From: Deltaproteobacteria bacterium
GTDB taxonomy: Bacteria; Desulfobacterota; Dissulfuribacteria; Dissulfuribacterales; QOAL01
DNA length: 45,856 bases
Reading direction: 5' to 3'
Assembly (NCBI GenBank): GCA_015494395.1
Contig: WGBG01000069.1
Span: forward strand, 1 to 45,856
Positions within the stretch are counted from its first letter, which is position 1. Every line of letters starts with the position of its first letter. Under the pieces are notes generated by a model. It saw only the letters and a list, made by a program, of their open reading frames with translations. It was not told where the DNA came from and ran no database searches. The translations under genes and the position numbers were made by a program. Shown piece by piece: positions 36,435 through 40,081 of the stretch.

Positions 36435-37508
36435 CTAATTTGTATCAACCGCAAACTCATCTATATCTTCCCTGGATAGCGGCTCAATGGCAGTGGCCTT
36501 GTCAACCTTTCCGAAACACTCTGTCCGGACATCAATTGATCCCTGACACTTCCTGCAATAATACAGCATCATGGCTGCTGCCAGTTTAACTGTGGCATTA
36601 TCAGGTTTATGCCCCTTTGCAAGAGGATTCCTCAAGATTCCCGCAGGGGCAGGGACATTTTTGCTTTGCAGAAACAGGTCTGTATGCCTTTTCAGCATCT
36701 CAAGTCGTGCATTTTCCGCTTTATCACGACCAAGCACAAGCCACCAGCCGCCTGGCAGTATAAATTGTCGCCCGGTCACCGCAAGCCTGCAGTCATTTCC
36801 ATCCATTCCAGGCCATTTTCTGAAATATTCATTGAGACGCCTTCCCTGTATTGGGTCTGCAAGCCTGCAGCCTCCAGCCGGATTTGGATAGTCGGTAATG
36901 CCAAACTTTTCAGCAAGCTCTATCTGTTTCTTCCTCCCCCTGCCGCTAATGTGGGGAAGCTTCTCCCTTGATACCCAGCCAAGCTCCTCAGGTATGGTTG
37001 GTTTAAGGCTACGGGCGCAGAGTGGACGCAGAAGCAGCCCCTGTGCCCTGCTCTCGTTCCGAATGCAGTTCAGTGTATCCTTGCGCTGGGACATGGGACG
37101 CTGGCCTATCACCTCGCCTGTGGCAATAAAATCCGCATCATATTCCGGCATAAGCTCCAGCGTCTTGTGAATCATGAGTATCTTGCAGTCAATACAGGGA
37201 TTAAAGTTCTTCCCGTAGCCGTGTTCCGGGTTTCTAAGCATGGGAAGGTATTCATCTGTAATATCCTTTACCACAAGCCTTATGCCGTATTTGTCCTGCA
37301 CCCTGCCTATGTACCGTTGCGGATCATCTGCAGCCTCATCCCCAAAAAAGGGGGTGACAAATTTCACAGCCGTAACCCGGATACCCTGTTCCTGCAAAAC
37401 GCGACACGCAAGGATACTGTCAAGCCCTCCGGAGTACAGAACCAAGCAGCCGCGCTGCCCACGCCCTGGCGTCTTCTTCTCCCCCTCCGAGCATTCTTGC
37501 AATTTCAT
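36435..37508 (-). CDS. PP-loop ATPase (ThiI/MnmA-like tRNA-thiolation type), overlapping recN
   Basis: A 357-residue protein with the PP-loop SGGLDSILA near residue 21-29 and CIDCK about 80 residues later, as in MnmA/ThiI-type adenylating enzymes that thiolate tRNA. GEVIGQRPMSQRKDTL and NPAGGCRLADP are also characteristic. A second Cys pair, YYCRKCQGSIDV, stands near the C-terminus. The substrate is not certain. The start is at ATG 37508 (or TTG 37529). The N-terminus lies inside the 3' end of recN in another frame, an overlap of 89 bases. The conserved PP-loop itself begins just after the recN stop, so the first ~21 residues are dictated by recN. Confidence 0.82.
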   Translation of the reverse strand: MKLQECSEGEKKTPGRGQRGCLVLYSGGLDSILACRVLQEQGIRVTAVKFVTPFFGDEAADDPQRYIGRVQDKYGIRLVVKDITDEYLPMLRNPEHGYGKNFNPCIDCKILMIHKTLELMPEYDADFIATGEVIGQRPMSQRKDTLNCIRNESRAQGLLLRPLCARSLKPTIPEELGWVSREKLPHISGRGRKKQIELAEKFGITDYPNPAGGCRLADPIQGRRLNEYFRKWPGMDGNDCRLAVTGRQFILPGGWWLVLGRDKAENARLEMLKRHTDLFLQSKNVPAPAGILRNPLAKGHKPDNATVKLAAAMMLYYCRKCQGSIDVRTECFGKVDKATAIEPLSREDIDEFAVDTN

Positions 37509-39096
37509 CAACTCTTTCTTCTCCTTCAAGTCCCTTCATCCTGGTAATTGCAACACCATCAGCAACGCCCTTTTCAACACCAATATGTGTATCAGCAGAG
37601 GCAGCTATCTGGGGATAGTGGGATATGGCTACCACCTGGCCATTCCGGGAAAGGCTCCTGAGTTTCTTCCCAACCATATCAGCCACCTCCCCGCTGATGC
37701 CTGAATCAAGTTCGTCAAACACAACAGTCTCGACTCCTACCTTGCGGGCAAGAACGGCTTTAAGGGCAAGCATAACCCTGGAAAGCTCTCCGCCTGATGC
37801 TATGCGGGCAAGGGGTGCAGGCTCCTGTCCGGCATTGGCGCTGAAGAAAAAACTGACATTATCAAATCCTGAAGGGCCGATATCATCAACTTCAGGCTCT
37901 TCCGGACGCCTGACATCAACAATAAATTCTGTATCCTTTAACTTCAAATCCGAAAGCTCGGAACATACCGCCCCTGAAAGCTCCGAGGCTGCATCAATAC
38001 GCCTTTCAGAAAGCTGCCGTGCTGCATCAAGAAGTTCCCCTGAGATACTCTCCTTCTCCTTTTTAAGTGCGTCTATGCGCTCTGAAATGCCTGATGCCTG
38101 GGCAAGTTTCTCCTCTATCTCCTTCCTGTATGAAAGGACATCGTCTATTCCAGGGCCAAACCGCCTCCTCAACTGCCTTATGGCATAGAGTCTCTCCTCA
38201 AGCTGCTCAAGCCTTGCAAGATCAGAGGGGAGTGACCGAACATAATCCCGTATTTCATGGGCTATCTCCTCGGCCTGATAACGCAGGGAATGGGCATCCT
38301 CAAGCATCTTCTCAAGCCTGGCATCAGCCCTGCACATGCGCTCAAGGTCCTTCACAGCCTCTGAAAGAAGCTCAATAACCGCGCCCTTTCCGGCGTACAA
38401 GGCTGAATAGATACTTTCACCACGCAGTTTCAGCTCCTTTGCAGACCTGAGCACGGAAAGTTCCTGCTGAATCTCTTCTTCCTCGTCCTCTGAAGGATTT
38501 ACAGAATCAATCAGTTCAGCCTCATGTCTCAGACGTTCCTCATCCTCTGCCTGACGTCTTCTTGAGCCAACCAGTTGTTCAAGTTCTTTGCCGCAGGTGG
38601 TAAATGCCCTGAAAAGCCCTGATACCCTTTCTCTCTCCTGCTCAAGCCCTGCAAACCTGTCAAGCCACAGGCCATGACTCCCCTTTTTTAAAAGGCTCTG
38701 ATACTCATGCTGACTGGATATGCTCACAAGGTCAGCGGTAATTTCCCTGAGATCCTGCAGGGATACCAGGGATCCGTTTATGTATATCCTGCCCCCCTTT
38801 CCGGAAGCAGGGATTATGCGGCGTATTATCAGGTCATCACCAGGCTCTATTCCCCTCTCCTCGAGCAGCGGGGTAACACTCTCCGGATTGGCAAAAAGCG
38901 CCTGTACCACTGCCTGCTTTTCTCCGGGCCTTACCTGCCTGGAATCTGCCCTTGCACCAAGAAGAAGCTTTAGCGCCTGAACGGAAAGAGACTTTCCTGC
39001 ACCGGTTTCCCCTGTAATGACTGTAAATTTCTCAGAAAGCGAAAGGGATGCCCGCTTTATTAAAACAAAATTCTCTATGCTGAGTTCAAGCAGCAT
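37420..39096 (-). CDS. recN: DNA repair protein RecN
   Basis: A 558-residue SMC-like ATPase of double-strand-break repair. Walker A is TGETGAGKS (28-36), followed by the LKLLLGARAD segment. Long coiled coils fill the middle (about 150-390). The C-terminal ABC signature LASGGELSRVMLALK and Walker B TVVFDELDSGISG are complete, followed by the HYPQIA loop. Length is normal. GGAG lies 10 bases before the ATG. It shares 89 bases at its end with the PP-loop gene, so the two are likely transcribed and possibly translated together. Element A3 lies between its start and the next (plus) gene. Confidence 0.95.
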   Translation of the reverse strand: MLLELSIENFVLIKRASLSLSEKFTVITGETGAGKSLSVQALKLLLGARADSRQVRPGEKQAVVQALFANPESVTPLLEERGIEPGDDLIIRRIIPASGKGGRIYINGSLVSLQDLREITADLVSISSQHEYQSLLKKGSHGLWLDRFAGLEQERERVSGLFRAFTTCGKELEQLVGSRRRQAEDEERLRHEAELIDSVNPSEDEEEEIQQELSVLRSAKELKLRGESIYSALYAGKGAVIELLSEAVKDLERMCRADARLEKMLEDAHSLRYQAEEIAHEIRDYVRSLPSDLARLEQLEERLYAIRQLRRRFGPGIDDVLSYRKEIEEKLAQASGISERIDALKKEKESISGELLDAARQLSERRIDAASELSGAVCSELSDLKLKDTEFIVDVRRPEEPEVDDIGPSGFDNVSFFFSANAGQEPAPLARIASGGELSRVMLALKAVLARKVGVETVVFDELDSGISGEVADMVGKKLRSLSRNGQVVAISHYPQIAASADTHIGVEKGVADGVAITRMKGLEGEERVDEIARMLGGGEEDARAWAARLLGSVLRRA

Positions 39097-39530: not shown

Positions 39531-39920
39531 ATGCTGAACTTTGAAATAATAGCAGAACGCAGGATACAGCAGGCCATGAAAGACGGGGCATTTGACAATC
39601 TTCAGGGCAAGGGCAAACCCCTTGTGTTTGAAGATGATTCAATGATCCCTCCTGACCTGCGCATGGCATACAAGATACTGAAAAACGCAGGCTTCATCCC
39701 CCCTGCCATACAAAATGAAAGGGAAATCCAGCACGCACTGGACATGCTTGACCAGATGAACGATGAAAGGGAGCGCTATGCACAGGTCACAAAGCTGAAC
39801 CTGATGATAACCAAGGGCAACATGATGCGGCAGCGCCCCATCTATCTTGAGGCTGACCAGGTTTATTACCGGAAGGTGGTGGAAAAGGTAAAGCTTAACA
39901 GCAAGAGAGGAAAATCATGA
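39531..39920 (+). CDS. DUF1992 (DnaJC28 conserved domain) protein
   Basis: A 129-residue protein matching the DUF1992 family: FEIIAERRIQQAMKDGAFDN, LQGKGKPLVFEDDS, DLRMAYKILKNAGFIPPAI. The family is named from the conserved domain of a human J-protein homologue (DNAJC28) and its function is unknown. I take the ATG at 39531, which has GGGAG 7 bases before; the open frame upstream to 39453 lacks conserved sequence. The stop is overlapped by the next ATG (ATGA), so the tiny gene at 39917 is translationally coupled to it. Confidence 0.88.
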   Translation: MLNFEIIAERRIQQAMKDGAFDNLQGKGKPLVFEDDSMIPPDLRMAYKILKNAGFIPPAIQNEREIQHALDMLDQMNDERERYAQVTKLNLMITKGNMMRQRPIYLEADQVYYRKVVEKVKLNSKRGKS

Positions 39921-40081
39921 AAGAGATAATTTTACTTTTAATCTCAGCGGCAGCAGGAATCGGCGGCTCAATGTTTGCAGCCTCACGCCTTCAGGACAGA
40001 TGCACACCATGAATTTATCTCTACGGCGCCCTGGGACTGGGCGTAGTGACCTACACGGTTCTTAAATCTATTCTATCCTGA
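39917..40081 (+). CDS. Tiny two-helix membrane protein with in-frame TGA (candidate CxxU selenoprotein)
   Basis: Starts at an ATG overlapping the DUF1992 stop (ATGA), a sign of a coupled, translated gene. Residues 4-22 form one hydrophobic helix (IILLLISAAAGIGGSMFAA), then DRCTP, a TGA as codon 32 (40010-40012), and IYLYGALGLGVVTYTVL, a second helix, to a TGA at 40079: 54 residues in all. If the first TGA codes selenocysteine the centre reads C-T-P-U, a CxxU redox motif at the membrane surface. A hairpin matching the bacterial SECIS pattern starts 8 bases after the TGA. Alternatives are a mutated Trp or Cys codon, or a true stop giving a 31-residue peptide. Confidence 0.55.
40021..40046 (+). 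promoter_or_regulatory. SECIS-like hairpin after in-frame TGA (codon 32 of the tiny membrane gene)
   Basis: The upper stem is 5 bp (40027-40031 with 40039-40043, CGCCC/GGGCG), closing the loop TGGGACT. A lower stem CTA/TAG (40021-40023 with 40044-40046) is separated by a 3-base bulge. There are 19 bases between the TGA and the loop, and a G is in the second loop position, in line with the bacterial SECIS pattern as I recall it (16-37 bases, 3-14-base loop, G in the first two). Confidence 0.45.

Follow-up and report, generated by a model that had tools for sequence, protein, structure and literature searches.

Does the short open reading frame at positions 39917-40081 of the plus strand, which starts within the stop codon of a DUF1992 gene and crosses one in-frame TGA, encode a selenoprotein, or does it end at that codon? 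The frame lies in the window, by which we mean the whole stretch of 45,856 nucleotides that was analysed. The original prediction had described both the TGA-crossing frame and its ATGA overlap with the DUF1992 stop, and both were confirmed in the sequence, where the following features were located.

39531-39920, plus strand: DJC28_CD (DUF1992) gene, the 5' neighbour (PF09350, E 6.4e-26), its TGA stop overlapping the start of the putative selenoprotein gene (ATGA).
39905-39910, plus strand: Shine-Dalgarno-like GAGAGG, recognized in the sequence 6 nt 5' of the ATG.
39917-40081, plus strand: putative selenoprotein gene, 54 amino acids with Sec as residue 32, assigned from the sequence and its homologues; it ends in TGA, followed by TAA.
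40001-40012, plus strand: Cys29-Thr-Pro-Sec32 motif with the Sec codon TGA at 40010-40012; Cys29 and the TGA column are conserved across homologues.
40022-40048, plus strand: SECIS-like hairpin, assigned by folding, a check against synonymous recodings and family covariation (register one base off).

The frame translates as MKEIILLLISAAAGIGGSMFAASRLQDRCTP up to its single in-frame TGA (40010-40012) and as IYLYGALGLGVVTYTVLKSILS from there to the terminal stop. Read through, it yields 54 residues consisting of a hydrophobic stretch, DRCTP-UGA and a second hydrophobic stretch, and the two-span shape with a CxxU motif that had been claimed is recognizable as helix, C-T-P-UGA, helix and stop. Elsewhere in the window, positions 36435-37529 of the minus strand encode a ThiI/MnmA-like PP-loop domain joined to an NFACT-R_2 RNA-binding domain, likely a tRNA-modifying enzyme.

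The frame might alternatively be taken for an ordinary 31-residue single-helix peptide ending at the TGA, with the later open frame due to chance, as TGA is a normal stop in the genome of the window and an open stretch of 22 codons past a stop is common by chance. Homologues bear directly on this. A search with the single sequence in 119 related genomes revealed the first three further genes with TGA at the equivalent place. Using a profile of four sequences, 16 out of 395 genomes of the phylum were matched at E <= 5e-7, each match containing exactly one in-frame TGA in the same column and the 16 being separated from noise by a gap of three orders of magnitude. A wide scan was performed with the pattern C[IT]Px[ML][LM][LI]YGS, x being left free, on one genome per species for 84,980 species. 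It yielded 49 matches, 42 of which were confirmed as homologues, and TGA occupied the free position in all 42. Among the narrowly named groups, these homologues belong to Desulfobulbaceae, Desulfocapsaceae and relatives, and the cultured carriers include Desulfogranum mediterraneum, Desulfoprunum benzoelyticum and Desulfopila. The order of genome G131, evidently Desulfobulbales, carries the gene in 168 of 194 genomes (130 of the 141 good ones) with one TGA across all matches listed, and the G131 protein is identical to that of D. mediterraneum DSM 13871. Ten weak or unlisted homologues from this order were checked as well, nine of which had TGA and one TGC. In the family of genome G084, 30 genomes carry the gene at E <= 5e-6, with one TGA in each. 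Within the window's own order the gene was found in only one of 46 genomes, namely that of the window, and it is therefore either a relic or an acquisition there. No homologue was found in viral contigs.

Comparison of seven pairs of relatives clearly demonstrated pS values exceeding pN after the TGA in every pair (e.g., 0.37 versus 0.09 and 0.86 versus 0.14), and the same was true before the TGA; the residues flanking the UGA on both sides are under purifying selection. The family alignment is almost free of gaps after the TGA, with Cys at position 29 in nearly all members, mostly Pro at position 31 and YGSxGxG following Sec, and the UGA with conserved flanks that is expected of a selenoprotein was thus found among the homologues. 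Among members below E 1e-4, the stop found in frame is always TGA and never TAA or TAG. A 31-residue peptide would account neither for this restriction nor for post-TGA residues conserved almost without gaps over hundreds of genomes, nor for a cysteine homologue that continues through the site, and we consider it hardly credible. Homologues extending past codon 32, which had been sought, do exist and retain the UGA across hundreds of genomes, and their TGA at the same codon excludes a sequence error as its origin.

The cysteine form, the sole one found, is encoded in genome G434 (locus L143, E 5.5e-8), which has TGC at the Sec site and reads straight through as MKTVLISLAAAVAAATAFFYFRNQEDDGCPACLAVNAAIAAALLAIYLLNRFF. 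A Cys homologue such as selenoprotein families are expected to possess was thereby obtained, though it is rare. As with the Sec members of its lineage, the G434 gene is followed by mtnA, but at a greater distance, and of the family hairpin described below it retains neither the AGGU loop nor the ATA codon, with several stem pairs missing as well. The Tyr and Gly residues that are conserved in the second helix have also been lost. Apart from this one cysteine, the site is TGA in the matches listed and in those checked, and Trp (TGG) was not seen there among the homologues found. Two further members are divergent. In a weak one (L145 in genome G462) the TGA is present and Cys29 is apparently absent (SGRP-TGA), which would reflect a deletion, an error in the sequence or a form with Sec only, and the sequence of G430 diverges past the motif.

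A hairpin with a seven-base loop had been predicted 19 bases after the TGA and was found at that place. Its 6-bp stem (40026-40031 with 40039-40044) encloses the 7-nt loop UGGGACU (40032-40038), with lower pairs between 40022-40024 and 40046-40048; the loop lies 19 nt past the UGA and folding gave -13.5 kcal/mol. According to the published bSECIS model, the hairpin should lie 16-37 nt after the UGA and have a loop of 3-9 nt, a G in the first two loop positions and an energy of -7.5 kcal/mol or lower (PMC13188914), and the window hairpin agrees with the model on all four counts. However, 29% of synonymous recodings of the window peptide also pass, a proportion that favours the 31-residue peptide, and 1.5% do so at an energy as low as that of the window hairpin or lower. 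Taken alone, the hairpin is therefore only modestly unusual and weak evidence. The decisive evidence is, as we read the alignments, comparative and consists in the UGA being kept by homologues in hundreds of genomes.

In 51 distinct family sequences, a stem of 8 bp and a loop of 4 nt are formed by positions +15 to +34, counted from the U of the UGA, and the loop reads AGGU in 29 of them. The strongest stem pair links the wobble bases of two Gly codons (C-G 19, A-U 13, G-C 3, U-A 3), and cells with two-sided changes in the stem numbered 44, compared to 15.8 after shuffling and at most 15 after sliding, a count made on related and thus phylogenetically correlated sequences. Correction for the tree left two independent pairs on well supported branches, mostly in the expected direction and without significance. 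Ile at the loop codon is encoded by ATA in 22 out of 22 cases, whereas ATA makes up 10% of the Ile codons in neighbouring genes. When single sequences were folded to minimum energy, 34 of the 51 members passed a strict bSECIS check, versus 38% of synonymous recodings. The hairpin of the window is one base off the register of the family and does not have the AGGU loop, and an Rfam search of the window gave no match.

The genome of the window contains SelA, SelB, SelD and tRNA-Sec (74 bits), so that selA, selB, selC and selD, the machinery a selenoprotein depends on, are all present. Its selD gene (contig C68, positions 53802-54728) has an in-frame TGA itself and represents a second likely selenoprotein gene in this genome. 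All 16 carriers of the phylum possess selA; however, so do 355 of the 395 phylum genomes, and this co-occurrence therefore says little and is weak evidence. More telling is the joint absence in genus g293, where selA is missing from three out of three genomes and the gene was not found in the same three, while nearly all other members of their family carry it. Since selA is retained in most other non-carriers, the gene can also disappear on its own.

These data also bear on the possibility that the UGA is read as Trp or by a near-cognate tRNA, without selenium. Other organisms do read UGA as Trp, and what is demonstrated directly is the conservation of the frame only. Nevertheless, no TGG homologue was seen and the only homologue with a sense codon has Cys, the hairpin past the UGA covaries, the Sec machinery is present and the three genomes without selA are also without the gene, which makes such a readthrough very improbable. 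The selenocysteine reading of the in-frame TGA is supported by UGA conservation among homologues, purifying selection, the Cys homologue and the machinery. We are thus highly confident that ORF 39917-40081 represents a bona fide selenoprotein gene of an apparently undescribed family.

The original prediction had further paired the gene with DUF1992, and this pairing did not hold up as a family feature. Among 58 loci, the gene directly upstream is one that we take from its sequence to be typA (bipA) in 35 and the gene directly downstream presumably mtnA in 8, and a presumed Nudix gene is often convergent. In the family of G084, rubredoxin is located upstream in one genus and a small membrane protein in another. 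At six loci of genus g61 only a few bases separate the end of the rubredoxin gene from the selenoprotein gene that follows. Five loci of genus g314 (family f50) have a membrane protein of ~62-75 amino acids with the end FGSGRTGWP directly upstream; its two best examples show S/T-x-P-Y in place of C-x-P-U, and it aligns weakly over its full length to the selenoprotein, of which it may be both a Sec-less paralogue and a partner. DUF1992 is the upstream neighbour in only one of the 58 loci, that of the window, and when the DUF1992 genes of relatives were located and their downstream regions read, no selenoprotein gene followed. As a partner DUF1992 was rejected, since a conserved PF09350 neighbourhood was not found and the overlap is peculiar to the genome of the window. 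Despite the stop-start overlap, a functional tie to DUF1992 (DJC28_CD) has next to no probability. The changing neighbours argue for a self-contained function of the selenoprotein.

No described selenoprotein of this shape was encountered. A scan of 35 members gave best E values of 0.004 in Pfam and 0.006 in NCBIfam, to unrelated membrane and sorting models and thus without a credible match, a sequence search of the PDB revealed no relative, and Foldseek of the structural model against the PDB found nothing. None of the 119 prokaryotic selenoprotein families in the 2026 catalogue combines such a shape with the motif (PMC13188914), nor is the family named in the 2006 selenoproteome lists of Desulfotalea psychrophila and Desulfovibrio vulgaris (PMC1794560) or in the portion consulted of the 2007 stop-codon survey (PMC1914089). 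Within the open literature the family appears undescribed so far, a description elsewhere being possible. UGA-coded Sec, a downstream hairpin in the coding region and Cys-x-x-Sec spacing are shared with SELENOW-like, AhpD-like, GrdA and CC/Se motif (NF041239) selenoproteins, but these have NCBIfam or Pfam models of their own, none of which is matched by the 54-residue two-helix protein. KCU-star (DUF466) selenoproteins are likewise small but carry CU instead of CxPU, and their model, NF033934, gave no match. The hypothetical selenoproteins DG, DW and DF (NF049953, NF041197, NF049942), reported by deep-Sep in 2025, also come from Desulfobacterota genomes (PMC12013277). They differ in having GUxG, GxU or no motif and Cys homologues in many organisms, and the new family has no NCBIfam match to their models.

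An AlphaFold model built with 35 sequences has two helices, at residues 2-24 and 30-53, and the motif falls at the turn between them; its confidence is moderate (pLDDT 68, pTM 0.35). The loop contains 2.3 K/R on average compared to 0.7 at each end. As positively charged loops face the cytoplasm (positive-inside rule), this charge suggests that the turn of the putative helical hairpin is cytoplasmic. Since Cys-x-Pro-Sec sits at a helix start, a classic redox arrangement, a membrane-bound selenol/thiol redox site is probably the function and the most likely one, followed by binding of a metal or metalloid.

In the latter case the protein would still be a selenoprotein, but its Cys-x-Pro-Sec would bind metal like the paired cysteines of small Mer transport proteins. 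The two-helix size and the interfacial thiol pair are reminiscent of MerF/MerE-type carriers, a lead at most. The 2026 catalogue (PMC13188914) moreover includes a putative Sec-containing mercuric transport protein (PF02411, C/SxxU), which is likewise small and membrane-bound and also pairs a thiol with a selenol. The new family, however, matches neither PF02411 and the other Mer transport models nor any other family in Pfam or NCBIfam, no mer-type neighbours were noticed in the contexts read, and its near-universal occurrence in one order is unlike that of typical resistance genes. A metal-binding role is accordingly a minority reading, to which we give about one chance in a few.

For the preferred reading as a redox selenoprotein, sequence, conservation and genome content suggest that UGA codon 32 is decoded as selenocysteine by SelB and tRNA-Sec, aided by the hairpin, which would start ~20 nt past the UGA within the coding region. 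The product would span the inner membrane as a helical hairpin of 54 residues (helices 2-24 and 30-53, joined by a turn), with the Cys-x-Pro-Sec pair at the membrane-water interface where the second helix begins. This pair most likely cycles between selenolate/thiol and selenenyl-sulfide, presumably forming a small membrane-bound redox site in anaerobic sulfate reducers and relatives. The gene itself would stand alone, placed last or first in transcription units of unrelated housekeeping genes (typA, mtnA, rubredoxin and here DUF1992). More tentatively, the protein could be a minimal membrane oxidoreductase, whose Cys-x-Pro-Sec shuttles electrons from a cytoplasmic donor to a membrane partner. 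This would be a function central to Desulfobulbales that has gone unnoticed because annotation ends at the UGA; rubredoxin, the direct neighbour in one lineage, is a possible cytoplasmic electron donor.

If the selenoprotein reading is true, nearly all members of a major order, which comprises sulfate reducers, sulfur disproportionators and relatives, make a selenoprotein of the membrane, and current gene calls would shorten it to a fragment of 31 residues or omit it. A two-span membrane shape would join a catalogue of mostly thioredoxin-like and other redox proteins, and cultured strains such as Desulfogranum mediterraneum and Desulfoprunum benzoelyticum would be at hand for settling the question. 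That Cys forms are almost completely absent suggests that selenium is not easily substituted in this family, which would make it a good case for asking why selenocysteine is retained.
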